From Isoperla grammatica (taxonomy: Eukaryota; Arthropoda; Insecta; Plecoptera; Perlodidae), in NCBI GenBank assembly GCA_945910005.1, contig OX246744.1, forward strand, positions 46,476,623 to 46,540,622: a DNA stretch of 64,000 bases, written 5' to 3'. The notes below the pieces were generated by a model. That model searched no databases, was not told the origin of the DNA, and saw only the letters and a program-made list of their open reading frames with translations. Below are positions 628 through 53,627 of this stretch, piece after piece (position 1 is the first letter of the stretch; each line of letters starts with the position of its first letter). The position numbers and the translations under genes were made by a program.

Positions 628-2811
628 CTTACGTTGTATACCTGTTGCTAGACGGACCATGACCCACGCAACCCCGCCTACATAGCAACGCAGGGCGCCC
701 TACCGCACACCGCAGCAGACTTCTGGCAGCTGGTCTGGGAGCAAGGCAACGTTGTACTGTCTCATGTACTGTATACCTGTTGCTAGACGGACCACGACCC
801 CCGCAACCCTGCCTACATAGCAACGCAGGGCGCCCTACCGCACACGGCAGCAGACTTCTGGCAGCTGGTCTGGGAGCAAGGCAGCGTTGTACTGACTCAT
901 GTACTGTATACCTGTTGCTAGACGGACCACGACCCCCGCAACCCGGCCTACATAGCAACGCAGGGCGCCCTACCGCACACGGCAGCAGACTTCTGGCAGC
1001 TGGTCTGGGAGCAAGGCAGCGTTGTACTGTCTCATGTACTGTATACCTGTTGCTAGACGGACCACGACCCCCGCAACCCCGCCTACATAGCAACGCAGGG
1101 CGCCCTACCGCACACGGCAGCAAACTTCTGGCAGCTGGTCTGGGAGCAAGGCAGCGTTGTGCTGACTCATGTACTGTATACCTGTTGCTAGACGGACCAC
1201 GACCCCCGCAACCCCGCCTACATAGCAACGCAGGGCGCCCTACCGCACACGGCAGCAGACTTCTGGCAGCTGGTCTGGGAGCAAGGCAGCGTTGTACTGA
1301 CTCATGTACTGTATACCTGTTGCTAGACGGACCATGACCCCCGCAACCCCGCCTACATAGCAACGCAGGGCGCCCTACCGCACACGGCAGCAAACTTCTG
1401 GCAGCTGGTCTGGGAGCAAGGCAGCGTTGTACTGTCTCATGTACTGTATACCTGTTGCTAGACGGACCATGACCCCCGCAACCCTGCCTACATAGCAACG
1501 CAGGGCGCCCTACCGCACACCGCAGCAGACTTCTGGCAGCTGGTCTGGGAGCAAGGCAGCGTTGTACTGTCTCATGTACTGTATACCTGTTGCTAGACGG
1601 ACCACGACCCCCGCAACCCGGCCTACATAGCAACGCAGGGCGCCCTACCGCACACGGCAGCAGACTTCTGGCAGCTGGTCTGGGAGCAAGGCAGCGTTGT
1701 GCTGACTCATGTACTGTATACCTGTTGCTAGACGGACCATGACCCCCGCAACCCTGCCTACATAGCAACGCAGGGCGCCCTACCGCACACCGCAGCAGAC
1801 TTCTGGCAGCTGGTCTGGGAGCAAGGCAGCGTTGTACTGACTCATGTACTGTATACCTGTTGCTAGACGGACCACGACCCCCGCAACCCCGCCTACATAG
1901 CAACGCAGGGCGCCCTACCGCACACCGCAGCAGACTTCTGGCAGCTGGTCTGGGAGCAAGGCAGCGTTGTACTGTCTCATGTACTGTATACCTGTTGCTA
2001 GACGGACCACGACCCCCGCAACCCGGCCTACATAGCAACGCAGGGCGCCCTACCGCACACGGCAGCAGACTTCTGGCAGCTGGTCTGGGAGCAAGGCAGC
2101 GTTGTGCTGACTCATGTACTGTATACCTGTTGCTAGACGGACCATGACCCCCGCAACCCTGCCTACATAGCAACGCAGGGCGCCCTACCGCACACCGCAG
2201 CAGACTTCTGGCAGCTGGTCTGGGAGCAAGGCAGCGTTGTACTGACTCATGTACTGTATACCTGTTGCTAGACGGACCACGACCCCCGCAACCCCGCCTA
2301 CATAGCAACGCAGGGCGCCCTACCGCACACCGCAGCAGACTTCTGGCAGCTGGTCTGGGAGCAAGGCAGCGTTGTACTGTCTCATGTACTGTATACCTGT
2401 TGCTAGACGGACCACGACCCCCGCAACCCGGCCTACATAGCAACGCAGGGCGCCCTACCGCACACGGCAGCAGACTTCTGGCAGCTGGTCTGGGAGCAAG
2501 GCAGCGTTGTGCTGACTCATGTACTGTATACCTGTTGCTAGACGGACCATGACCCCCGCAACCCTGCCTACATAGCAACGCAGGGCGCCCTACCGCACAC
2601 CGCAGCAGACTTCTGGCAGCTGGTCTGGGAGCAAGGCAGCGTTGTACTGACTCATGTACTGTATACCTGTTGCTAGACGGACCACGACCCCCGCAACCCC
2701 GCCTACATAGCAACGCAGGGCGCTCTACCGCATACAGCAGCAGACTTCTGGCAGCTGGTCTGGGAGCAAGGCAGCGTTGTGCTGACTCATGTACTGTATA
2801 CCTGTTGCTAG
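628..2811 (+). repeat. 135-bp tandem array built from the IA-2 exon head and its 3' splice site
   Basis: Sixteen full 135-bp units, then a 17th head that continues into the true exon. Exon-like heads start at 652 and every 135 bp up to 2812. Each unit carries an acceptor-like end (ctgtatacctgttgctag) followed by the exon 5' part, which reads [15 protein letters not shown] then [18 protein letters not shown] on the + strand: the conserved PTP segment around QG(P/A)L and DFWxxVWEQ. After GTTGT the repeat units lack nine bases present in the real exon, keep CTGACT, and pass into the next acceptor, so each unit ends in an in-frame TAG that is also the next acceptor AG. No unit has a consensus 5' splice site. 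The first unit keeps a divergent flank (catgtacttacgttgtatacc). Units 9-15 follow a three-unit (405-bp) order. Because 135 is divisible by three, a 739-codon frame is open on the - strand; I regard it as a by-product. Confidence 0.95.
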
Positions 2812-3009
2812 ACGGACCACGACCCCCGCAACCCGGCCTACATAGCAACGCAGGGCGCCCTACCGCACACGGCAGCAGACTTCTGGCAGCTGGTCTGGGA
2901 GCAAGGAAGCGTTGTCATGGTGATGCTGACTAGACTCACCGAGAACGGCGCTGCAATGTGTCACCGTTATTGGCCGGAGGAGGGATCGGAGCTCTACCAC
3001 ATCTATGAG
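2812..3009 (+). CDS. IA-2: IA-2 receptor tyrosine phosphatase, PTP-domain exon A
   Basis: First visible coding exon of an IA-2/ICA512 (PTPRN) homologue, a dense-core-vesicle transmembrane protein whose PTP domain is generally inactive. 198 bp, 66 codons, phase 0 at both ends. Acceptor is the 17th copy of tgttgctag; donor is GAG|gtatga. It encodes [28 protein letters not shown], then [11 protein letters not shown] and [17 protein letters not shown]. This matches the family order ([28 protein letters not shown]). The 5' two thirds are duplicated sixteen times upstream, so sixteen decoy acceptors precede it. Only this last copy continues in frame through the exon to a good donor, so I infer it is the one used. 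Upstream exons (signal peptide, RESP18-like region, transmembrane segment) lie outside the window. Confidence 0.9.
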
Positions 3010-3015
3010 GTATGA

Positions 3016-3775: not shown

Positions 3776-3942
3776 GTGCATCTGGTGTCCGAGCACATCT
3801 GGTGTGACGACTACCTAGTGCGAAGCTTCTATCTAAAGAACCTCAAGACCGGCGAGACTCGGACCGTGACTCAGTTCCACTTCCTGTCGTGGCCCGACAA
3901 CGGAGTCCCACAAACGACCAAGGCGCTGCTCGAATTCCGAAG
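3776..3942 (+). CDS. IA-2: IA-2 PTP-domain exon B (WPD loop)
   Basis: 167 bp, starts in phase 0 after tctag and ends CGAAG|gtcggt (phase 2). It encodes [55 protein letters not shown]. This is the IA-2 segment carrying the WPD loop. Here the loop reads WPDNGVP, so the general-acid Asp of active PTPs is present. From memory, vertebrate IA-2 proteins have another residue at this place. The neighbouring frame on the - strand is a shadow. Confidence 0.93.
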
Positions 3943-4463: not shown

Positions 4464-4517
4464 GAAGGTGAATAAGTCTTACCGCGGCCGTTCCTGCCCC
4501 ATCGTTGTCCACTGCAG
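4464..4517 (+). CDS. IA-2: IA-2 PTP-domain exon C (start of the P-loop)
   Basis: Short 54-bp exon between acceptor ttctccacttccag and donor TGCAG|gtaggt. Joined to exon B it reads RKVNKSYRGRSCPIVVHC, ending with the nucleophilic Cys of the PTP signature and two bases of the next Ser codon. Too short to stand out as an open frame, but both splice sites and the family alignment fix it. The intron before it (3943-4463) shows nothing else. Confidence 0.92.
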
Positions 4518-4899: not shown

Positions 4900-5026
4900 C
4901 GACGGCGTGGGCCGAACGGGAACCTATTGTGTGATCGACATGGTTCTGAACCGCATGGCCAAGGGGGCTAAGGAGATAGACATCGCAGCGACACTGGAAC
5001 ACATTCGAGACCAGCGAGCCAACATG
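4900..5026 (+). CDS. IA-2: IA-2 PTP-domain exon D (P-loop, catalytic signature)
   Basis: 127 bp from acceptor gtggttttcag to donor AACATG|gtaggt. It completes the signature [12 protein letters not shown] (C-x5-R) and continues [31 protein letters not shown]. Cys and Arg of the P-loop are present. The Asp after CS replaces the usual Ala, a hallmark of IA-2 proteins that is associated with loss of phosphatase activity. The Tyr-Cys after GRTGT differs from the commoner YILID/YVLID. The 4518-4899 intron holds no recognised element. Confidence 0.93.
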
Positions 5027-5552: not shown

Positions 5553-5699
5553 GTGAAGACCAAGCAGCAGTTTGAGTTTGTGTTGACGGCCGTGGCGGAG
5601 GAAGTGAACGCCATATTGAAGGCTCTGCCCGCCCAGTTACCGCCCGCGAGCGTTCAGCCGGTACCGGTAGCCCAAGCACCGGCTACCGGACCGCAGTAA
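5553..5699 (+). CDS. IA-2: IA-2 terminal coding exon E
   Basis: Acceptor ttctgttcgcag, then 48 codons and TAA. It encodes [28 protein letters not shown], the canonical IA-2 C-terminal helix, followed by a lineage-specific tail rich in Pro, Ala, Val and Gln (about 22 residues ending GPQ) that the mammalian proteins, ending just after ALP(Q), do not have. Summed lengths of exons A-E keep one frame throughout (198+167+54+127+147 bp, 230 residues). Confidence 0.93.
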
Positions 5700-16429: not shown

Positions 16430-18015
16430 CTAGATATTAATAATTAAGTGTTTATCACCCTACATTTTATGATTGATAAATCTCAACATGGGTTCCAGAA
16501 AAACAAATCTACAATTACTGCTCTTGCTGAATTTGAGAATCTAGTACTTTCTGCAATGGATAGGGGTGACAGTGTGGTTGGGTTATTCTGTGACCTAAGT
16601 AAAGCGTTTGATTGCATTCACCATGACACTTTACTCAAGAAACTTGAGTTTTATGGTATACGGGGTATACCTTTGGATTGGTGTAAATCATATCTGCTTG
16701 ATAGGAAACAAAAAGTAATGGTCAGACATGAGTCTAAAACTGGGGAACATACTGATCACTCATCTGATTGGGAAACCATCACCTCAGGTGTCCCACAGGG
16801 CTCCGTACTTGGGCCATTGTTCTTCCTCGTTGGTATAAATGATATCCAAAAATACATGGACCAAATTAAATTGACTCTATTTGCTGATGACATTACAGCC
16901 ATAATAATTCAAAATAGTATATCTGAAGCAGAAATTACAGCCCAAGTTAGCACTGAGCAAATTTCCATTTACCTAAATGCTAATAAACTCCCATTAAACA
17001 TCAATAAAACTAATTTTGTCCATTTTCACTCTCGACAACAGAGTTTAAACCAGCCTCTGACAATTGAACTAGGTAGTTTGGATATAACACAGGTGACAGA
17101 CATACCATTTCTTGGGATGCATATAGATGAAATTGAAAACATAAATTGGGAGAAACATTTAGATAAACTCATACCAAAAATTAACTCTGCATGTTATGCC
17201 TTACGAGTCATTAAACAGACAATTAGTACAAATACAGCTAAGGCTGCCTACCATGCCTATCTGGAATCCATCATTTGGTATGGTATCCATTTTTGGGGAT
17301 CTAGTGCTCAGCTTGCAAGCATTTTCAGACTACAAAAAAAGGCAATACGTGTAATTGGAGGACTAGGCTATAGGGAAACTTGTTTCAATACGTTTAAAGC
17401 ATTACATATAGGCCTACTCACTGTTCCATGTATATATGTGTATGAAATACTTAAACTAAAAGTTAAACAAAAATCAACGCTAGACCTTAACAGTAATACA
17501 CACCACCATAATACCAGGCAAAAGCAAAACTTTCATGTTCCCCATTGCAACAAAACACGACTACAGAAAGGATCACATGTCGCTGGAATTACCTTCTATA
17601 ACTCCCTACCTAAACGTATCCGTGACATAGAAGATCCTAATCAGCAAATTAGTAAAATCTACTCCTACTTGACAGACAACGCTTTCTATTCAATTGCAGA
17701 CTTTGAATACGGACCCTCTAAGAATAAGAATAATAATAAATGACCATGACATGATAAATATTGGATACTATTTCCTTATATATTTTTAATTAACAAATTG
17801 TTCTGTTTCTTTATCCAAATCTGACACCTACTTTCAGTCTGTACTATGTTCTATTATCTGTTATCTATTGACATGTGTACTATATTATGTATCTCTTAAT
17901 TTAAGTTAGTTTAAGAAATGACTTGTAATATGCCCCAAGCACATAGTGTGAGGGGTCAAAAATTACGCAAATAAATACATACAAACATACATACATACAT
18001 ACATACATACAAACA
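16430..18015 (+). mobile_element. 5'-truncated LINE in ORMDL intron 2
   Basis: Contains the RT-bearing frame at 16448-17743, about 220 bp of 3' UTR, and ends in an ATAC/CATA-type microsatellite tail (about 17965-18015), a common LINE 3' end. The 5' border is uncertain; no target-site duplication was resolved. It lies antisense to ORMDL. Confidence 0.8.
16448..17743 (+). CDS. LINE reverse transcriptase, N-terminally truncated
   Basis: 431 codons open without interruption. RT motifs in order: QHGFQKNKST (about 13-22), DLSKAFD (49-55, catalytic Asp), SGVPQGSVLGPL (about 113-124), LFADD (144-148, catalytic FADD), then the thumb and a C-terminal region with an NTRxK-type Lys/Arg segment. The endonuclease domain and the first RT blocks are missing, and the frame begins at a GTG, so no native start remains. 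It resembles jockey/CR1-type elements of arthropods. The absence of stops suggests a fairly recent insertion. Not expected to be functional alone. Confidence 0.85.
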   Translation: MFITLHFMIDKSQHGFQKNKSTITALAEFENLVLSAMDRGDSVVGLFCDLSKAFDCIHHDTLLKKLEFYGIRGIPLDWCKSYLLDRKQKVMVRHESKTGEHTDHSSDWETITSGVPQGSVLGPLFFLVGINDIQKYMDQIKLTLFADDITAIIIQNSISEAEITAQVSTEQISIYLNANKLPLNINKTNFVHFHSRQQSLNQPLTIELGSLDITQVTDIPFLGMHIDEIENINWEKHLDKLIPKINSACYALRVIKQTISTNTAKAAYHAYLESIIWYGIHFWGSSAQLASIFRLQKKAIRVIGGLGYRETCFNTFKALHIGLLTVPCIYVYEILKLKVKQKSTLDLNSNTHHHNTRQKQNFHVPHCNKTRLQKGSHVAGITFYNSLPKRIRDIEDPNQQISKIYSYLTDNAFYSIADFEYGPSKNKNNNK

Positions 18016-18426
18016 TACAAGATCAAGCATACCTGTCTGTAGACTGTTGTAGGCCCATTGAATCATACAACATGTGGGTTGTATGACCTTGTCTACTATA
18101 TTATGCAATAAAAATAATACTACTACTAATAATAATATATAATATATATAATACTGTATATAGGCCTACTTTAGAATACAGACTGAAAGAAATGCATGTA
18201 ACATACTAGTACGTATGGTTTTTAACACTAATTTATTACGATGATTTGCAATATACGTACCCTGTTCACCTTGTGTGCAATGAGTTAAATTATGCAATAA
18301 AAACCAAACCAAACCAGCATAATTGTAATTGAAATTCAACACTTTAACAAAGCTGTATAGGCCCATTTATGTAACTTGAACACTGCAAGATTTGAATGTT
18401 AAAAGTTCATTATTTGAGCTGTGACA
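18016..18426. other. ORMDL intron sequence, no feature
   Basis: AT-rich with taggcctac motifs. The right edge (gaca, 18423-18426) is the left target-site duplication of the LTR element. Confidence 0.5.
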
Positions 18427-18620
18427 TGTTAAAAAGAAACTTTGATTCACTTAAAATATAATACACTCAGTCAGGATTACGATATTTCTTTATTTACTTT
18501 AAAAAAAACACAATCATACAGACCCACTAGGCCATAGATAACAACCGTCTCCGCGTCGTTACTATTGTTGACCCGCTCAGCGCCTTGGCGATTTCAAATC
18601 TTAAATATGTATTTCTAACA
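18427..18620 (-). repeat. 3' LTR of the gypsy-type element
   Basis: 194 bp, tgtt...aaca, same sequence as 21104-21297. Confidence 0.93.
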
Positions 18621-18916: not shown

Positions 18917-20791
18917 TCAGAGAGAAGCAGTCTCTGTACTCATCACCAATTCCAGTAACTCGGTAGCTTGTAGCTGACTGACACTGCAGTCGATATTTAG
19001 GTCTTCAAGGTCGATAGGACGAAACGGCAGACGCTTGCCCTCGTCGTGCAAAATGTTGTTCGTAGTCGTACAGTTTTCAATAACTCGGCCTCGCGCCACA
19101 GAACTATTGTCGGTTAGAGTTGCTTCCTTGTCGCTGCTGTTCATAATTGGTACAATCGTTTGACCTCCGATAATAGAAAACACTTGATGAAAATCGTCTT
19201 GGTCGCAAACCATGGTAAAGTCTTGCGTCAATTCCGACCGTACTTGTAGTAAGTTCATAGAATTTGCCGGAAGTACAACTTTACTCGCGACTGGTCGTAA
19301 ATTAACTCGATTTGACAAGTCTACCGTCATGGTCGAGAACGGTTCTTCGGTACGGTAGCCTATTATTAATTGGTCATCAATTCTCGCGTAAGCAATTGTT
19401 GGTTGATCCAACCAGGTCCTACCTATTAACATTTCCGTTGGTTGCGCCTGGTCTGGAACAACAAGAACTCCAACTTCTTCGCCGACGATTCCATCTATTT
19501 CAACTTTAACAATTGATTGTCCTATCGGCTTCGTGAGGTTGTCTGCGATTCCAAATCCGACTAGCGTTGACGTTGTTGGTTGAATCTTCAACTGGCAGCG
19601 GATGGCTGCTGATGCTTGAATGGTACACGTTGAGCTTCCGGGATCAATCAGGGCTTGTAGCTCGTAGTTTTCAATTTTAGCCGTTTTCACATACTTTGAA
19701 GGGTTAATTCCTTGGTCGTCCAACGTTATAAGACTTACTGACTCGGGTTGCTTATTATTACAGTATTTTTTCGTGTGGCCTTCCATTCCACATTCGATAC
19801 ATTTTAATGGGCGTCGTGCCTCCATGCAATCTCGTGAAATGTGTCCCATTTTATTGCAATTAAAACACTTTACGTTCGCACCGTTAAAAGAGCTTGGCGT
19901 AGCTTTAGTACTTATCTTGGGTTCCGTCTTCATCGCTGAAGCCTCCGTCTTCATGAATGGTCCATCCGTCCGTTTAACGCTGGTCTCCATTAATCGTGGT
20001 TGAGCTGGCTGTGGCGCTGCCTTCTCTCGTCGTGGAATTCGTTCAACTCTTTCTTTATGGATTTCTTCGAAATAACGTACATCTTGAAGTAGCTGATCGG
20101 CGTTTGCATGATATCTCGCCATCAACATGTCGCACAAATCACGTGACCATAGTCCGATTAAGACTTGCGACTTTGTTTCGTTAAAGTCCAGGTTGACATC
20201 GTGACACAGGGCAATCTTTTCGTGGAAATACGCACTTGTGCTTTCACCATGCACTTGTACACGCTGCTGCATCAGCTTCCAGCGTTCCGGTAAGCTTGAT
20301 CCACCTACAAATGTCGCTCTAAACTGGCTGACGAAATCTGCCCAGTTGTGGAATTTCCTATAGCGATACCAATGTGATGCTGCCCCAACAAGATGGGTAC
20401 GTGCACTCTCAAGTATGAACGAATCGTTCCATTTGTGGATCTCACCTGTACTTTCCACAGAATGTATCCATGACGATGCTTTCGAACTGGATCCTTCTCC
20501 ATCAAAACATGGAATGCTCTTATGCAAATCAGGCATGACCCTATATTCAGGTTCTGTAGGCCTTACCGTTAGTGCATTTAGCATTATTGTCATCTGTTCA
20601 TCTTTTCTTCTGTTTTGTTCAATCATGAGCTGCATCATGGCTTCTACAGTCATCGTACCTTGGTTTATTTCTTCGAATGAATCAGATGTAGGCCTAAGCC
20701 TGCCGGGAGGTTGTTGAGTTTGACCCTCTTGACTAGCTTGGTACAGTAGTTCGATCCCATTGTCGATCTGTGTGTTATTAACGTTAGACAT
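18917..20791 (-). CDS. gypsy-type Gag-protease polyprotein
   Basis: 624 codons starting at an ATG. Order: N-terminal acidic region, a Gag capsid-like region (about 85-245, with WxHxVE and FRATFV-type segments), a basic linker, two CCHC zinc knuckles (CFNCNKMGHISRDC at about 309-322, CIECGMEGHTKKYC at about 331-344), and an aspartic protease beginning ALIDPGSSTC (about 380-389) with a later MLIGRTWLD. The usual protease active site is D(T/S)G; here it reads DPG, an unusual substitution. The rest runs into the pre-RT linker and stops. Confidence 0.88.
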   Translation of the reverse strand: MSNVNNTQIDNGIELLYQASQEGQTQQPPGRLRPTSDSFEEINQGTMTVEAMMQLMIEQNRRKDEQMTIMLNALTVRPTEPEYRVMPDLHKSIPCFDGEGSSSKASSWIHSVESTGEIHKWNDSFILESARTHLVGAASHWYRYRKFHNWADFVSQFRATFVGGSSLPERWKLMQQRVQVHGESTSAYFHEKIALCHDVNLDFNETKSQVLIGLWSRDLCDMLMARYHANADQLLQDVRYFEEIHKERVERIPRREKAAPQPAQPRLMETSVKRTDGPFMKTEASAMKTEPKISTKATPSSFNGANVKCFNCNKMGHISRDCMEARRPLKCIECGMEGHTKKYCNNKQPESVSLITLDDQGINPSKYVKTAKIENYELQALIDPGSSTCTIQASAAIRCQLKIQPTTSTLVGFGIADNLTKPIGQSIVKVEIDGIVGEEVGVLVVPDQAQPTEMLIGRTWLDQPTIAYARIDDQLIIGYRTEEPFSTMTVDLSNRVNLRPVASKVVLPANSMNLLQVRSELTQDFTMVCDQDDFHQVFSIIGGQTIVPIMNSSDKEATLTDNSSVARGRVIENCTTTNNILHDEGKRLPFRPIDLEDLNIDCSVSQLQATELLELVMSTETASL

Positions 20792-22990: not shown

Positions 22991-23992
22991 TAGAGGTAGC
23001 GCAGTCCGGCACGCGCCTTGTGTAGTAGGGCAGGCACGTGACACTAGCAACACCTTCTGTCAATGGAACAACTAGCGCTACTGTTGTGAGAAGTCAAACA
23101 ACTCAAACTGTGGGCGCGGACATCAAAAAAATTTGTGTTGATAGGAATCTTGTTTACGTGGAAAATAATAGAACGATACCATAGTTGGGCAACCTCGAAT
23201 TTCCAATGGGTTTAGGGGGCCACTGTAAATGCAGCTAAACCTAAGATTGTTATTAGCGAAATTTACTTATCTCCTTGTTGTATTACTTTATGCGGACGTA
23301 ATGTCAAATCTTACCATATTTTTCATATTTTCCACTTTTAAATATTATAAGATTTCAATTCATGTTCTCCAGTATAACCTACGTGACTAGGTCCGTATAA
23401 GTTAGTGGCAGCTTAAATGGGCCACGAACTTACTTAGAAGTAGCAAACTCATCCTTTGCTATCTGTACGATATATATATGCTACATGATGAGTCAATGAA
23501 AGGTAGAACTGATAAAAACAGTATTTAAACTCTTTTGTACTCATTTTTTAACCGATATGGTTACTGATAGTTATTTCTCATCAATGTACGTTATTTTTTT
23601 ATTCGTAAAATAGTGGGGTGAGTACAAGAGAGTGGTTAGAGTAATATTCTGTTCGATTCTTGATTAACTTATGATAGCGAAAATGTTAAATTTATGGATG
23701 TGTAATATTTTAGTTGTTGCCTGCGTTGTTGTGTAATACATTCGTCTAAACTACACTCCTCACGCTTAAACCGATAATAGGATTTCTCTCTAATTTTACA
23801 TCCGAGTATAAAAGTGTCAAATTGATGACTTTCATTACGAAAAAACAAGGTATTTATCTTGAAAGAGTATATACAAAATGATAAAATATAAAATATAATG
23901 AGAAATACATAAAAATACATATTTTTTTAATTTCCCCGTAACGATTACAATACTTTAATTTCGAAGCAGATTTTTATCGTTGTGAAACTAAC
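22991..23992. other. No gene seen
   Basis: Begins with the CpG-richer presumed promoter side of ORMDL, then AT-rich. A 29-bp word (atggttactgatagttattt then ctcatcaa) at about 23558 recurs at about 54338; its nature is unknown. Confidence 0.45.
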
Positions 23993-39828: not shown

Positions 39829-42800
39829 CGGAGTAGGGCCGCTATGTGTAGGAACTGCGATGCCTAATGTACGGAGTATGGCCGCTATGTGTAGGAACTG
39901 CGATGCCTAATGTACGGGAGTATGGCCGCTATGTGTAGAACTGCGATGCCTAATGTACGGGAGTATGGCCGCTATGTGTAGGAACTGCGATGCCTAATGT
40001 ACGGGAGTATGGCCGCTATGTGTAGGAACTGCGATGCCTAATGTACGGGAGTATGGCCGCTATGTGTAGGAACTGCGATGCCTAATGTACGGGAGTATGG
40101 CCGCTATGTGTAGGAACTGCGATGCCTAATGTACGGGAGTATGGCCGCTATGTGTAGGAACTGCGATGCCTAATGTACGGAGTATGGCCGCTATGTGTAG
40201 GAACTGCGATGCCTAATGTACGGGAGTATGGCCGCTATGTGTAGGAACTGCGATGCCTAATGTACGGGAGTATGGCCGCTATGTGTAGGAACTGCGATGC
40301 CTAATGTACGGGAGTATGGCCGCTATGTGTAGGAACTGCGATGCCTAATGTACGGGAGTATGGCCGCTATGTGTAGGAACTGCGATGCCTAATGTACGGG
40401 AGTATGGCCGCTATGTGTAGGAACTGCGATGCCTAATGTACGGGAGTATGGCCGCTATGTGTAGGAACTGCGATGCCTAATGTACGGGAGTATGGCCGCT
40501 ATGTGTAGGAACTGCGATGCCTAATGTACGGGAGTATGGCCGCTATGTGTAGGAACTGCGATGCCTAATGTACGGGAGTATGGCCGCTATGTGTAGGAAC
40601 TGCGATGCCTAATGTACGGGAGTATGGCCGCTATGTGTAGGAACTGCAATGCCTAATGTACGGGAGTATGGCCGCTATGTGTAGGAACTGCGATGCCTAA
40701 TGTACGGGAGTATGGCCGCTATGTGTAGGAACTGCGATGCCTAATGTACGGGAGTATGGCCGCTATGTGTAGGAACTGCGATGCCTAATGTACGGGAGTA
40801 TGGCCGCTATGTGTAGGAACTGCGATGCCTAATGTACGGGAGTATGGCCGCTATGTGTAGGAACTGCGATGCCTAATGTACGGGAGTATGGCCGCTATGT
40901 GTAGGAACTGCGATGCCTAATGTACGGGAGTATGGCCGCTATGTGTAGGAACTGCGATGCCTAATGTACGGGAGTATGGCCGCTGTGTGTAGGAACTGCG
41001 ATGCCTAATGTACGGGAGTATGGCCGCTATGTGTAGGAACTGCGATGCCTAATGTACGGGAGTATGGCCGCTGTGTGTAGGAACTGCGATGCCTAATGTA
41101 CGGGAGTATGGCCGCTGTGTGTAGGAACTGCGATGCCTAATGTACGGGAGTATGGCCGCTATGTGTAGGAACTGCGATGCCTAATGTACGGGAGTATGGC
41201 CGCTATGTGTAGGAACTGCGATGCCTAATGTACGGGAGTATGGCCGCTATGTGTAGGAACTGCGATACCTAATGTACGGGAGTATGGCCACTATGTGTAG
41301 GAACTGCGATGCCTAATGTACGGGAGTATGGCCGCTATGTGTAGGAACTGCGATGCCTAATGTACGGTAGTATGGCCGCTATGTGTAGGAACTGCGATGC
41401 CTAATGTACGGGAGTATGGCCGCTATGTGTAGGAACTGCGATGCCTAATGTACGGGAGTATGGCCGCTATGTGTAGGAACTGCGATGCCTAATGTACGGG
41501 AGTATGGCCGCTATGTGTAGGAACTGCGGTGCCTAATGTACGGGAGTATGGCCGCTATGTGTAGGAACTGCGATGTCTAATGTACGGAGTAGGGCCGCTA
41601 TGTGTAGGAACTGCGATGCCTAATGTACGGGAGTATGGCCGCTATGTGTAGGAACTGCGATGTCTAATGTACGGAGTAGGGCCGCTATGTGTAGGAACTG
41701 CGATGCCTAATGTACGGGAGTATGGCCGCTATGTGTAGGAACTGCGATGTCTAATGTACGGAGTAGGGCCGCTATGTGTAGGAACTGCGATGTCTAATGT
41801 ACGGAGTAGGGCCGCTATGTGTAGGAACTGCGATGCCTAATGTACGGGAGTATGGCCGCTATGTGTAGGAACTGCGATGCCTAATGTACGGGAGTATGGC
41901 CGCTATGTGTAGGAACTGCGATGCCTAATGTACGGGAGTATGGCCGCTATGTGTAGGAACTGCGGTGCCTAATGTACGGGAGTATGGCCGCTATGTGTAG
42001 GAACTGCGGTGCCTAATGTACGGGAGTATGGCCGCTATGTGTAGGAACTGCGGTGCCTAATGTACGGGAGTATGGCCGCTATGTGTAGGAACTGCGATGC
42101 CTAATGTACGGCGATATGGCCGCTATGTGTAGGAACTGCGATGCCTAATGTACGGCAGTATGGCCGCTATGTGTAGGAACTGCGGTGCCTAATGTACGGG
42201 AGTATGGCCGCTATGTGTAGGAACTGCGATGCCTAATGTACGGGAGTATGGCCACTATGTGTAGGAACTGCGATACCTAATGTACGGGAGTATGGCCGCT
42301 ATGTGTAGGAACTGCGATGCCTAATGTACGGGAGTATGGCCACTATGTGTAGGAACTGCGATACCTAATGTACGGGAGTATGGCCGCCATGTGTAGGAAC
42401 TGCGATGCCTAATGTACGGGAGTATGGCCGCTATGTGTAGGAACTGCGATGCCTAATGTACGGGATATGGCCGCTATGTGTAGGAACTGCGATGCCTAAT
42501 GTACGGCAGTATGGCCGCTATGTGTAGGAACTGCGATGCCTAATGTACGGGAGTATGGCCACTATGTGTAGGAACTGCGATGCCTAATGTACGGGAGTAT
42601 GGCCGCTATGTGTAGGAACTGCGATGCCTAATGTACGGGAGTATGGCCGCTATGTGTAGGAACTGCGGTGCCTAATGTACGGGAGTATGGCCGCTATGTG
42701 TAGGAACTGCGATGCCTAATGTACGGCGATATGGCCGCTATGTGTAGGAACTGCGATGCCTCATGTACGGGAGTATGGCCGCTATGTGTAGGAACTGCGA

Positions 42801-45066
42801 TGCCTAATGTACGGGTGTATGGTCGCTATGTGTAGGAACTGCGATGCCTAATGTACGGGAGTATGGCCGCTATGTATTGGAACTGCGATGCCTAATGTAC
42901 GGGAGTATGGCCGCTATGTGTAGGAACTGCGATGCCTAATGTACGGGAGTATGGCCGCTATGTATTGGAACTGCGATGCCTAATGTACGGGTGTATGGTC
43001 GCTATGTGTAGGAACTGCGATGCCTAATGTACGGGAGTATGGCCGCTATGTATTGGAACTGCGATGCCTAATGTACGGGAGTATGGCCGCTATGTGTAGG
43101 AACTGCGATGCCTAATGTACGGGTGTATGGTCGCTATGTGTAGGAACTGCGATGCCTAATGTACGGGAGTATGGCCGCTATGTATTGGAACTGCGATGCC
43201 TAATGTACGGGAGTATGGCCGCTATGTGTAGGAACTGCGATGCCTAATGTACGGGAGTATGGCCGCTATGTATTGGAACTGCGATGCCTAATGTACGGGA
43301 TATGGCCGCTATGTGTAGGAACTGCGATGCCTAATGTACGGGAGTATGGCCACTATGTGTAGGAACTGCGATGCCTAATGTACGGCAGTATGGCCGCTAT
43401 GTGTAGGAACTGCGATGCCTAATGTACGGGAGTATGGCCGCTATGTGTAGGAACTGCAATGCCTAATGTACGGCGATATGGCCGCTATGTGTAGGAACTG
43501 CGATGTCTAGTGTACGGCAGTATGGCCGCTATGTGTAGGAACTGCGATGCCTAATGTACGGGTGTATGGTCGCTATGTGTAGGAACTGCGATGCCTAATG
43601 TACGGGAGTATGGCCGCTATGTATTGGAACTGCGATGCCTAATGTACGGGAGTATGGCCGCTATGTATTGGAACTGCGATGCCTAATGTACGGGAGTATG
43701 GCCGCTATGTGTAGGAACTGCGATGCCTAATGTACGGGAGTATGGCCGCTATGTGTAGGAACTGCGATGCCTAATGTACGGGAGTATGGCCGCTATGTGT
43801 AGGAACTGCGATGCCTAATGTACGGGAGTATGGCCGCTATGTGTAGGAACTGCGATGCCTAATGTACGGGAGTATGGCCGCTATGTGTAGGAACTGCGAT
43901 GCCTAATGTACGGGAGTATGGCCGCTATATGTAGGAACTGAGGTGCCTAATGTACGGGAGTATGGCCGCTATGTGTAGGAACTGCGATGCCTAATGTACG
44001 GGAGTATGGCCGCTATGTGTAGGAACTGCGATGCCTAATGTACGGGAGTATGGCCGCTATGTGTAGGAACTGCGATGCCTAATGTACGGGAGTATGGCCG
44101 CTATGTGCAGGAACTGCGATGCCTAATGTACGGGAGTATGGCCGCTATGTGTAGGAACTGCGATGCCTAATGTACGGGAGTATGGCCGCTATGTGTAGGA
44201 ACTGCGATGCCTAATGTACGGGAGTATGGCCGCTATGTGTAGGAACTGCGATGCCTAATGTACGGGAGTATGGCCGCTATGTGTAGGAACTGCGATGCCT
44301 AATGTACGGGAGTAGGGCCGCTATGTGTAGGAACTGCGATGCCTAATGTACGGGAGTAGGGCCGCTATGTGTAGGAACTGCGATGCCTAATGTACGGGAG
44401 TATGGCCGCTATGTGTAGGAACTGCGATGCCTAATGTACGGGATATGGCCGCTTTGTGTAGGAACTGCGATGCCTAATGTACGGGAGTATGGCCGCTTTG
44501 TGTAGGAACTGCGATGCCTAATGTACGGCAATATGGCCGCTATGTGTAGGAACTGCGATGCCTAATGTACGGGAGTATGGCCGCTATGTGTAGGAACTGC
44601 GGTGCCTAATGTACGGGAGTATGGCCGCTGTGTGTAGGAACTGCGATGCCTAATGTACGGGAGTATGGCCGCTATGTATAGGAACTGCGATGCCTAATGT
44701 ACGGGAGTATGGCCGCTATGTGTAGGAACTGCGATGCCTCATGTACGGGAGTATGGCCGCTATGTGTAGGAACTGCGATGCCTAATGTACGGGAGTATGG
44801 CCGCTATGTGTAGGAACTGCGATGCCTAATGTACGGCAATATGGCCGCTATGTGTATGAACTGCGATGCCTAATGTACGGGAGTATGGCCGCTATGTGTA
44901 GGAACTGCGATGCCTAATGTACGGCAATATGGCCGCTATGTGTAGGAACTGCGATGCCTTATGTACGGGAGTATGGCCGCTATGTGTAGGAACTGCGATG
45001 CCTAATGTACGGGAGTATGGCCGCTATGTGTAGGAACTGCGATGCCTAATGTACGGCAATATGGCC
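39829..45066. repeat. 44-bp satellite, about 119 units
   Basis: Unit gagtatggccgctatgtgta + ggaactgcgatgcctaatgt + acgg. Most units are identical; 42- and 43-bp variants lose one or two bases at the acgg(g)ag joint. Variants (tgcggtgcc, gccactatg, tgtattgga, ggtgtatggtcgc, acggcgatatgg, acggcaatatgg) recur in local blocks, mainly 42.1-43.6 and 44.4-45.0 kb. 44 is not divisible by three and no frame stays open. It lies upstream of the AstCCC signal-peptide exon. Confidence 0.97.
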
Positions 45067-46252: not shown

Positions 46253-47088
46253 GTTGCTTTCAGTGTCACGTGGTTTGCAGGTAGTATCTGACCACGTGGC
46301 ATATTCGTATTGATTGGTAGAGGTGATTGCAGAGTGACTGACGTTTATGGATTATTTTTATAATTAATTACGGTTTTGAGTGAAGATGTGGTGATGTTTA
46401 ACTTTTACAAGTTTTAGCTAGTTAGTATTTACTAGAGTGATCCAGATTAGTGGAAAATGATTTCGAACTCCAAACTAATATTATTGTAAACATTGTTCCA
46501 TTAAGTGTTTTAACTAGATTGCCAAGGTTATTTTAATTAGTTTACATAATACAATCATTAAAACACAGCTGACCTCCTACACAGTAATTCCGAATTTCAA
46601 ATATAATTGGACATAGAACAACGTAAGTCTAACTATCCTTAACTTTGTTTTAATTAGGTAACAACTAGAGTTCTAATTAAGACGAATTATGTAATCTTGT
46701 TCATAATGTTGTAATACTCGGAAGGAAACAGGGCCTAGAGTTGGGGTCTCACTTCACTAAGATAAGATGGACGTCAGGTCAGCCTTAAGATAAGTTCTAT
46801 CACTGTTGCTAGGTCCTTTCAAGGATGCTTCATTATACTTTAGCCGACACTCAATAGACGTACATGGATAAGATTCAATAAAATAAGTATCGGTTCATAC
46901 ATTGTAAAGTAGGAAACAAGTGAAATCACAAAAACCGTGGATTTTGTGAATAATATATACCGAAAATCGTTCTTTAAAGTTTAAAACTTTTAAATTAATA
47001 TTGATAACATTATCCGGTGGTCCTGAATCCTCCTCTTGTATCTAACATAATATTATTATTATTATTGATTATTTTAATTTTAAGTATT
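46253..47088. other. No gene seen
   Basis: AT-rich, no exon or repeat recognised. Confidence 0.5.
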
Positions 47089-51065: not shown

Positions 51066-53627
51066 TATTTATTTATTTATCGTATGGAAGCAACAGCTAA
51101 GATTCAACAAAGTACAATATACATATAAAGTTATCATAAATATAAATCATAAACATAAATCTAAGCCGGCCAACCAGGCCAGCGCGTCAGGTGTCGCTCT
51201 GTGGATCTCAGACCAATCCCCCTGGAAAGAGCGCAGGCGGCAATCCCTCACAATGTGGTTGATGGTCTGGCGAGGTTCGCCACAGTCACAGGCGCTGGAT
51301 GGGATCGCGCCCCATTTGAACAGGGAGTCTGCGCACCGGCCATGATTGGTTCTGATGCGGTTTAGTCTGGTCCACAGGTGTCTAGGAAGATCAAAGCCTG
51401 GAACGGGAGTCGTTGGGTCTACAATTGGCGAGTTTGGTGCAAATTCCGACCACATTCTTTTCCACTCCATAGCACTGTCAAAGTTAGATTCTTGAAGTTT
51501 GGCAGCTTGTCTCAAAGATGGATTCCGCGACTTCAAGCGACCGCGGTACATTATGGCAGCATCTTCATGAATAGGCAAATTGTGTTTTTTGCATATTTTG
51601 TCGTATTCTCTGAGCAGCGCTTTTGAGCGCCTTAATGATGGTGGGGTGATATTGCTCAGGACAGGTAGCCATTGGGTCGGCGTTGATCTGAGTGTTCCGG
51701 AAATCGTCCGCATTGTAATATTGAGCTGGGTATCTATAATCCGAGTATGCGTGCTTTCCAGCCAGACCGGTGCACAGTACTCTGCTGACGAGTACACCAG
51801 GCCAAGGGCAGCAGTGCGCAATGTAGCAGGCGAGGCTCCCCATGTAGTCGAAGCAAGTTTGTGAAGTAGGTTATTTCTTGTTTTAAGCTTGGCTGCGCAG
51901 TTATGCAGATGCTGTTTAAACGTGAGAGATCTGTCCAGCGTTATTCCGAGATACTTTGGATGAAAGTTATGTTGCAGTACAGCACCATTGAAAACTACTT
52001 GAAGCGGGACGTGGGCTATTTTGTTGTTCAGATGAAACCATGCTGACTCCGTCTTACTGAGGCTGGGAGTGAGTCTCCAATTTTTGAAGTAAGCACTCAG
52101 GCCTTCAAGGTCTTGTGTAAGAACTTCTTCAGCAACGTGCATGTCCTTGTGCTGGAAGGTCAAGGCTAGGTCGTCTGCATACTGGAACTTTCTAGACTTT
52201 GTCTCCGGCATGTCGTGTATATAGAGGTTGAACATCAACGGGGCGAGAACGGATCCTTGTGGTAACCCGTTATTGAGTTGTCTCTGCTTACTTTTAGCCT
52301 CGTCCATGAAGACTTCAAAGGTGCGATTACTCAGCATATTATTGATGAGTCTGCTTATTCTTTTGCAGGGCACAACTTTGAGGAGTTTGTAGATTAGGCC
52401 CGTGCGCCACACTGTATCGTACGCCGCAGTTAGGTCCACAAATACTGCAGCTGTTTTAAGCTTTTTCTCAAAACCAGCTTCAATGTGTGTTGTTAAGGAC
52501 ATGACTTGGTCTGTGCAGCTGCGTCCTTGGCGAAATCCGGCCTGCTCTACGGGGATGACTTCATTTACTGCATGCTCAATTCTGTTATAGATAAGCCGTT
52601 CCAGAACCTTGTAGCAACTGCTCAAGAGTGCAATTGGGCGATAGCTTTCCGCTATGTCAGCTGGTTTGCCAGGCTTGAGAATTGCTAGGATCTTCGATTT
52701 CCTGAATTCCCTGGGGTAACTTCCAGATATCAAAATGTCGCTGTAAAACTTACAGAGCCACCTTTTGGTGTTCTTCCCACAGGCCTTCAGGAATTCGGGG
52801 TGGATTCCATCAGGGCCGGCTGCCTTCCCAGCTTTAGTTCTTGATATGGCTGCTTCTAGCTCAAGCATTGTAAAATCTTTGCTAAATTCTGATGAGTCAG
52901 GAGTGGTGGATCTTAAGTCTTTGAGTGATCTTCTTATCGTCCTCGTGAATTCCTTGTCGGCCTTAGCCTTGGAGGTTTCAACTATCCGGCGCGCTACCGC
53001 CTCTGGGTTGATTTTGGGCAGATGTGATGTAGTCACATTAGCGCCACCAAGTTTACGTAGGAGGCTCCAAGCTTTCCTACTTGAATGGGTGAAATCTAAG
53101 TTGTTGGTCGTGTTTTTCCATTTGTCTCGGCGTGCCGTGTCCAGCGAATATAAAAGGTCCTCAGCTATTTCTGGGTCTCCAGACTGCAGGAATTCTTGGT
53201 ATAGCCTGTCGCTCTCTTCACTCCACCCCGGAATGTATTCCTTACGGTAACCACGCGGGATGTGTCTCTTGGCAGTTGAGATGACGGCTCCAACAAATCT
53301 CGAGTAGTTCTGGGCAGATGGAGGGATCCAGCGGACGTTAAAGTCTAACTCTTTGGAGAATGAACCCCAGGCAGCTTTGTTGAAATTCCATCTAGGCCGC
53401 TGGACAGAGTTTATCAGCGGGATTTTTATACCACTTTCTATCATAACGGGCCGGTGTTGGCTCCGGGGGAAGCTTTTGAGAACTCTTCTGGACACGTGCA
53501 TATTATGTCGCTCGGTGTCACTGGTAGTTACAAAGCATAAATCAGGGTTGTAATCTCTCTGCCATCGTCCAGAGTGAAAGGTACCTTTATCTTTTGCGTC
53601 AAATATCAGAACCATGTGGTATATATA
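51066..53627 (-). mobile_element. LINE with 12-bp target-site duplication, 5'-truncated (2,562 bp)
   Basis: Flanked by tatttacacgct at 51054-51065 and 53628-53639. On the - strand it ends in an (AAAT)n tail (gataaataaataaata) beside the left copy. Starts 12 bp before the ATG of its ORF, inside the endonuclease domain. Unbroken coding frame and exact duplication point to recent insertion. Confidence 0.93.
51147..53615 (-). CDS. LINE endonuclease-RT protein, lacking most of the endonuclease
   Basis: 822 codons, no stop or frameshift. Order: the end of an AP-like endonuclease (PDLCFVT at about 24-30, SQHRPV at 52-57), a linker, the RT with AGPDGIHPEF (about 266-275), YRPIALLS (about 325-332), FRQGRSCTDQ (361-370), FVDLTAAYD (392-400), NNGLPQGSVLAPL (about 448-460) and QYADD (478-482), then the thumb and a C-terminal CxC...H...C cluster (about 780-800) common in this LINE group. 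It resembles jockey-superfamily elements. The true N-terminus (and any ORF1) is lost, so it would not act alone. Confidence 0.92.
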   Translation of the reverse strand: MVLIFDAKDKGTFHSGRWQRDYNPDLCFVTTSDTERHNMHVSRRVLKSFPRSQHRPVMIESGIKIPLINSVQRPRWNFNKAAWGSFSKELDFNVRWIPPSAQNYSRFVGAVISTAKRHIPRGYRKEYIPGWSEESDRLYQEFLQSGDPEIAEDLLYSLDTARRDKWKNTTNNLDFTHSSRKAWSLLRKLGGANVTTSHLPKINPEAVARRIVETSKAKADKEFTRTIRRSLKDLRSTTPDSSEFSKDFTMLELEAAISRTKAGKAAGPDGIHPEFLKACGKNTKRWLCKFYSDILISGSYPREFRKSKILAILKPGKPADIAESYRPIALLSSCYKVLERLIYNRIEHAVNEVIPVEQAGFRQGRSCTDQVMSLTTHIEAGFEKKLKTAAVFVDLTAAYDTVWRTGLIYKLLKVVPCKRISRLINNMLSNRTFEVFMDEAKSKQRQLNNGLPQGSVLAPLMFNLYIHDMPETKSRKFQYADDLALTFQHKDMHVAEEVLTQDLEGLSAYFKNWRLTPSLSKTESAWFHLNNKIAHVPLQVVFNGAVLQHNFHPKYLGITLDRSLTFKQHLHNCAAKLKTRNNLLHKLASTTWGASPATLRTAALGLVYSSAEYCAPVWLESTHTRIIDTQLNITMRTISGTLRSTPTQWLPVLSNITPPSLRRSKALLREYDKICKKHNLPIHEDAAIMYRGRLKSRNPSLRQAAKLQESNFDSAMEWKRMWSEFAPNSPIVDPTTPVPGFDLPRHLWTRLNRIRTNHGRCADSLFKWGAIPSSACDCGEPRQTINHIVRDCRLRSFQGDWSEIHRATPDALAWLAGLDLCL

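Follow-up and report, generated by a model that had tools for sequence, protein, structure and literature searches.

The window is the whole 64,000-nucleotide stretch analysed here, corresponding to C14:46476623-46540622 of an Isoperla grammatica assembly that comprises 874 Mb in 603 contigs. It carries exons of a gene whose encoded protein is IA-2/phogrin-like, with PTPRN2 as the best solved relative (2qep, E 1.3e-113; then 2i1y, E 2.3e-111) and a Pfam match to Y_phosphatase (E 3.2e-66). From the protein relatives and a DNA search of the exon's own genome, we placed the true PTP exon of this gene at 2812..3009 on the plus strand. The exon begins ACG GAC CAC and ends SELYHIYE, and the intron before it is phase 0, the upstream exon ending NASTI|GTGAGT at L001:7147, with that donor at C14:46473770. 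Its donor, GAG|GTATGA (3010..3015, plus strand), was assigned by donor score. Downstream on the same strand follow the next IA-2 exon at 3776..3942, an exon with the end VHC at 4464..4517, a further exon at 4900..5026, and the last exon at 5553..5699, which extends up to the stop codon. The window also holds mobile-element open frames, with reverse transcriptase at 16448-17743 (+) and 51147-53615 (-) and a gag-type aspartyl protease with zinc knuckle at 18917-20791 (-), as well as a large minisatellite at 39830-45066 (44 bp x 119 copies, matches 96%). Rfam at gathering thresholds gave no match anywhere in the window.

Sixteen copies of an exon head and its acceptor precede the PTP exon

At the 5′ side of the PTP exon, TRF identified an array at 635-2915 with a period of 135, 16.9 copies and 97% matches. 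The acceptor motif TGTTGCTAG occurs 17 times in this array, from 643 to 2803 at a spacing of exactly 135 bp (643 + 135k, k = 0..16), and one additional, distant occurrence lies at 46804. Together, TRF and the motif positions delimit 16 decoy units in tandem on the plus strand (635..2802), each of them 135 bp long. Every unit is composed of ~30 nt of intron end, including the acceptor, and ~104 nt of exon head. The motif positions put the first of the 17 acceptors at 643..651 (+), and motif positions with frame reading put the true, 17th acceptor at 2803..2811 (+). When read from the first decoy acceptor, the PTP frame continues for 44 codons (652..783, +) until a TAG at 784-786, part of the next acceptor, closes it. 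The same 44 residues and TAG follow from 16 of 16 decoys, and from the 17th acceptor the frame runs on through the true exon. A preliminary description of this DNA had claimed 17 equivalent acceptors, an in-frame TAG within 45 codons for 16 of them, a last unit that continues into the true exon, and decoys lacking a consensus donor. The first three claims were borne out by these positions and frames, and the fourth by donor scores, which on a donor matrix were 2.5 for the best GT in the one decoy unit scored and 7.3 for the true donor.

The decoys vary at 10 sites, and four of them (decoys 3, 8, 11 and 14) differ from the true acceptor and exon head at 1 of 113 nt. Since the decoys share the acceptor and its nearest ~30 nt, the spliceosome would hardly be able to distinguish the copies on the acceptor side. 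Within the units, an A/T difference occurs at 760 and every 135 bp from there (unit index 117), with A in 10/16 units and T in 6/16; the unit preceding the true exon has A. This site sits in CTGACT, ~26 nt upstream of where the next acceptor ends, which by the consensus is a possible branch point location.

A DNA search of the assembly with the exon returned at least 18 matches: the full exon once, 16 partial copies with 94-99% identity over 104 nt, and one match of 51 bp (86%) on C17, in a related PTP exon. Because the full exon was matched only once, no second copy of the IA-2 locus was found in the assembly by this search, whose counts are lower bounds. The identity of the partial copies over 104 nt ruled out a chance match of the units to the exon. 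Dispersal of the unit through the genome was rejected as well, the matches falling only in the array and, over 51 bp, in the C17 PTP exon (again a lower bound). On the minus strand, an open reading frame of 739 aa (629-2848(-)) spans the whole array; it exists because the unit has no stop in that frame and a length that is a multiple of three. We rejected a reverse-strand gene here, as the Pfam matches of the frame are to four unrelated families and the observed changes are synonymous in it at only 2/11. This frame is probably not a gene.

The later units show higher-order structure

Comparison of the units revealed that units 8-15 (1588..2667, +) form a higher-order repeat, whose pattern returns every three units (405 bp). 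Within it, lag-3 differences were 0 in five successive comparisons. On average, units three apart differed by 2.3 and units six apart by 2.6, compared with 3.25 to 3.83 at lags 1, 2, 4, 5, 7 and 8. Such a three-unit higher-order pattern is usual for minisatellite growth by unequal exchange or slippage. By eye, short exon/intron matches could be seen at the unit junctions, CATG in the window array and AACTCCAGG and AACTCTAGG in an array at the transmembrane exon of the same gene (below). These matches would fit arrays that started by slippage between short repeats.

Exon-edge arrays recur in IA-2 and in a second PTP gene

The array at the PTP exon is one of several. Just upstream of the window, at L001:3149-5226, the tail of the IA-2 transmembrane exon and its donor CAG|GTACAC form an array of 99 bp x 20.7, in which the true exon is the first copy, making it the mirror image of the PTP-exon array. 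At L011:6265-6553, an upstream exon tail with its donor, presumably also belonging to IA-2, is repeated (155 bp x 1.9). The 51-bp match on C17 led to a second PTP gene, a PTP relative by sequence, where we found arrays of a PTP exon tail and donor (77 bp x 22.8), of a transmembrane exon head and acceptor (142 bp x 5.0), and of an acceptor and another exon head (51 bp x 1.9). The three lie at L016:3185-4940 (minus strand) and, within the joined sequence of the C17 minus strand (L031), at 16582-16679 and 17906-18612. With the window array, this gives six exon-edge arrays in two genes, 2/6 having fewer than two full copies. As judged by reading, the authentic exon lies on the exon side in 6/6, being the last copy at acceptors and the first copy at donors. 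The preliminary description had taken homologous arrays elsewhere as a possible sign that the exon match was coincidental. The arrays found elsewhere are themselves made of exon edges, which turns this argument around: the exon match is genuine, and the process extends beyond the PTP exon.

Two other repeats were observed in the examined sequence. An array of 81 bp x 16.8 at L010:3730-5092, read on the minus strand, apparently stays in frame and gives a 27-residue repeat after a signal-peptide-like start, so that it may belong to a nested secreted protein gene (by eye). At L001:6254-6638 lies a repeat of 129 bp x 3, which may resemble 5S rRNA-derived sequence.

Arrays are dense in both genes and show no significant preference for exon edges

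Counting tandem arrays with a period of 25 or more, we found that they cover 25% of the 36-kb IA-2 block versus ~10% of what remains of the 134 kb examined; in nine 10-kb tiles of other contigs, coverage ranged from 0 to 39% with a mean of ~8%. C14 ends ~0.33 Mb beyond the IA-2 exon, and the second PTP gene is ~0.9 Mb from the start of C17. Proximity to chromosome ends may be the cause of the high array density in both PTP genes. TTAGG is the usual arthropod form of the telomere, and TTAGG repeats are present at the end of C1, in keeping with an arthropod source; a lancelet is very unlikely. C14 and C17 have no telomere array in their outermost 5 kb, and their ends are not proven to be those of chromosomes. 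As both genes lie less than 1 Mb from a contig end, they are possibly unrepresentative of the genome.

Over exon edges in the IA-2 block we counted 3/9 arrays, with 2.14 expected by random placement (P 0.36), using 12 exons placed by reading, some of whose edges are off by up to 6 bp. The 40 kb of the C17 gene likewise had 3/9 arrays over exon edges, with 1.5 expected (P 0.14 to 0.15), a comparison based on the 6 exons known, with the donor at 23542, and one in which additional exons would raise the expected count. Pooled, 6/18 arrays lie over exon edges against 3.7 expected. Tests against random placement in the IA-2 block and the C17 gene thus found no significant preference for exon edges, and a modest enrichment there may exist.

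These counts bear on the idea that the array is a splicing-control device, in which decoys compete with the true acceptor and array length sets the share of early-stop, decaying transcripts. Such a device would make sense of the near context common to all 17 acceptors and of the in-frame stop reached from 16/16 decoys. It would also fit the transmembrane exon, where a frame read on beyond the true donor soon ends, at a TGA 12 codons later (by eye). However, similar arrays sit at donors as well as acceptors of another gene, in numbers that do not significantly exceed random placement, and RT-PCR in amphioxus, in the available part of that report, suggested undisturbed splicing with such arrays (PMC3087553). 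The sequence analysis gave no evidence for splicing control or for a role in circular RNA, and we consider splicing control very unlikely. Given the exon-edge arrays elsewhere and the non-significant edge preference, a minisatellite is better supported than a splicing switch. This favours what the preliminary description had offered as its plain alternative, namely that a minisatellite had captured an exon head: similar and mirror-image arrays recur elsewhere in IA-2 and in the C17 PTP gene.

Were the array an assembly artefact, a single unit would have been wrongly multiplied. This is very unlikely, since the 16 units vary at their 10 sites and carry the three-unit pattern, and five further arrays with different unit lengths lie at other exon edges of two genes. 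A parallel comes from the repeats of lancelet PGBD5, for which re-sequencing, according to the authors in the available part of their report, argued strongly against assembly error (PMC3902484).

Variation in the PTP-exon array is structured by codons

In the exon part of the 16 decoys, 8/10 differences are synonymous in the PTP frame, compared with 3.36 expected when the same base changes are drawn at random sites (P 0.0023), and with the true exon included 9/11 changes are synonymous (P 0.0007; CpG-matched P 0.0014), in a test that was chosen after seeing the variants and that covers three arrays with few changes. Other frames have 1 or 2 of 11 changes synonymous, with the exception of a reverse frame sharing the wobble positions, in which 10/11 are synonymous, yet every unit holds three stops. 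A synonymous excess is not what an intronic copy drifting freely would show, which suggests exchange of the decoys with the functional exon. Most likely, the variants in the PTP array arose, or were screened, in the functional exon or in alleles of it before they entered the array.

The synonymous differences (8/10) would also be explained if the decoys were functional coding modules, that is, alternative or mutually exclusive exons, which is scarcely credible when the one unit scored has no good donor, TAG closes the frame in every unit, and a decoy, holding only ~104 of the exon's 198 nt, cannot replace the exon.

The codon signal is absent from the IA-2 transmembrane array, in which 4/14 changes are synonymous and the null is 4.2 (20 of 21 units, the last having been left out for its diverging tail), so that this array looks neutral. 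Exchange with the exon is therefore not general, and we rejected codon structure as a general property of the arrays. The C17 donor array had 4/6 changes synonymous (P 0.028; 23/23 units, with one change at the unit junction), and the C17 transmembrane array, by eye, has about one exon-part change, too few to be informative. The neutrality that the preliminary description had attached to a captured exon head thus holds with a reservation, since most of the decoy differences are synonymous.

Discussion

We conclude that the array is very probably a largely neutral minisatellite of the kind known as mirages, which exchanges with its exon, loses its decoys along with the intron and requires no dedicated function. 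It appears to be a side effect of the genome's richness in repeats, not a splicing switch. In the model we propose, a stretch across the intron 3′ end and the exon head would have been duplicated in tandem, and slippage or unequal exchange would then have raised the number of units, in the later part as three-unit blocks of 405 bp. Growth on the intron side would keep the true exon whole as the last unit, as the anatomy shows it to be, and the decoys would probably leave with the intron. Only the last copy runs on into the rest of the exon, with a strong donor 198 nt from its acceptor; the decoys are at least 333 nt from that donor. Exon definition, from established knowledge of splicing, would pair the true donor with the nearest, i.e. 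the last, acceptor; with only that acceptor near a donor, the array may be tolerated. Should a decoy acceptor be used, the stop after 44 codons would leave the transcript lost or truncated.

Exon and array would in addition swap sequence, a step that has statistical support in the PTP-exon array and whose mechanism we infer. Taken further, the array may be a record of its exon: the functional exon, or alleles of it, would repeatedly give rise to new units at the end nearest the exon. The intron would in this way store past synonymous variants and could return them by conversion. We offer this extension tentatively and think it somewhat doubtful. If it is true, an intronic minisatellite and a coding exon would evolve in concert, in a genome rich in exon-edge arrays. 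The codon-structured variation was unexpected and is the one feature worth following. The synonymous pattern, if upheld, would reveal gene conversion passing between an exon and the copies of it in the intron. More broadly, the six exon-edge arrays suggest that splicing works despite many identical decoy sites beside a real one. Such arrays are natural tests of splice-site choice, where donor proximity can be set against first come, and of intron growth or gain through tandem duplication.

Comparison with known systems

Mutually exclusive exon arrays contain a complete exon per copy, with acceptor and donor, and a coding minisatellite is read through in frame; the decoys are incomplete in the first respect and have TAG in every unit in the second. 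Several features of mirages are present at the IA-2 PTP exon: the unit lies across an exon-intron boundary, the units carry a splice signal, the authentic exon is intact at one end, and the cluster is homogenised, as seen in its three-unit higher-order repeat and 97% matches. In the open-licence literature, covered by titles and abstract starts, we found no description of an exon-edge array in IA-2 or in any arthropod.

The closest parallels are in amphioxus, and are given here as they stand in the available parts of the reports. In the globin gene BflGb6, the 3′ end of an intron and the 5′ part of an exon are repeated in tandem in units of 150-160 bp, with 6 and 3 units in two haplotypes, and BflGb9 has a duplicate of a 3′ exon boundary (PMC3087553). 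Many units of these globin arrays carry AG/GT signals, the clusters undergo concerted evolution, and RT-PCR suggested regular splicing; the name 'mirages' was taken from earlier work on Adh3, and mirages were proposed as a route to new introns (PMC3087553). The IA-2 array is like the globin mirages in that its unit is an intron 3′ end plus an exon head with a splice signal. It differs in having 16 decoys in an arthropod gene, as against 6 and 3 units in lancelet, and in being known from one assembly sequence, whereas the globin mirages are backed by RT-PCR and a second haplotype. The Adh3 mirages are also tandem repeats over an exon-intron boundary, with units of 10-72 bp, compared with 135 bp in IA-2, and with somatic and length instability (cited in PMC3087553). 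In lancelet PGBD5, repeats of 60 and 108 bp lie over splice sites, and Adh and troponin C are cited beside it (PMC3902484); the PGBD5 repeats are imperfect, the 108-bp one is a triplication, and both gene and phylum differ from those of the IA-2 array.

Two further systems resemble the locus in part. Human PTPRN2, of the IA-2/phogrin family, is subtelomeric and belongs to the top two genes by number of VNTRs (PMC7608644). Its unusually many tandem repeats near a chromosome end recall the repeat-rich IA-2 gene described here, and the available part of that report does not mention repeats over exon edges. In potato RdRp, an intron was gained by tandem genomic duplication (PMC4974935). There too, to go by the available part of the report, the duplication lies inside a gene and is proposed to multiply splice signals; the outcome was a new intron, whereas in IA-2 an old intron became longer. 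The type of array found at the IA-2 PTP exon has already been described in the amphioxus mirages, and the IA-2 case places it in what is apparently a new phylum. The earlier cases that we found are all from lancelet, and six arrays in two arthropod genes, on both sides of exons, suggest that such arrays originate wherever minisatellites are dense.
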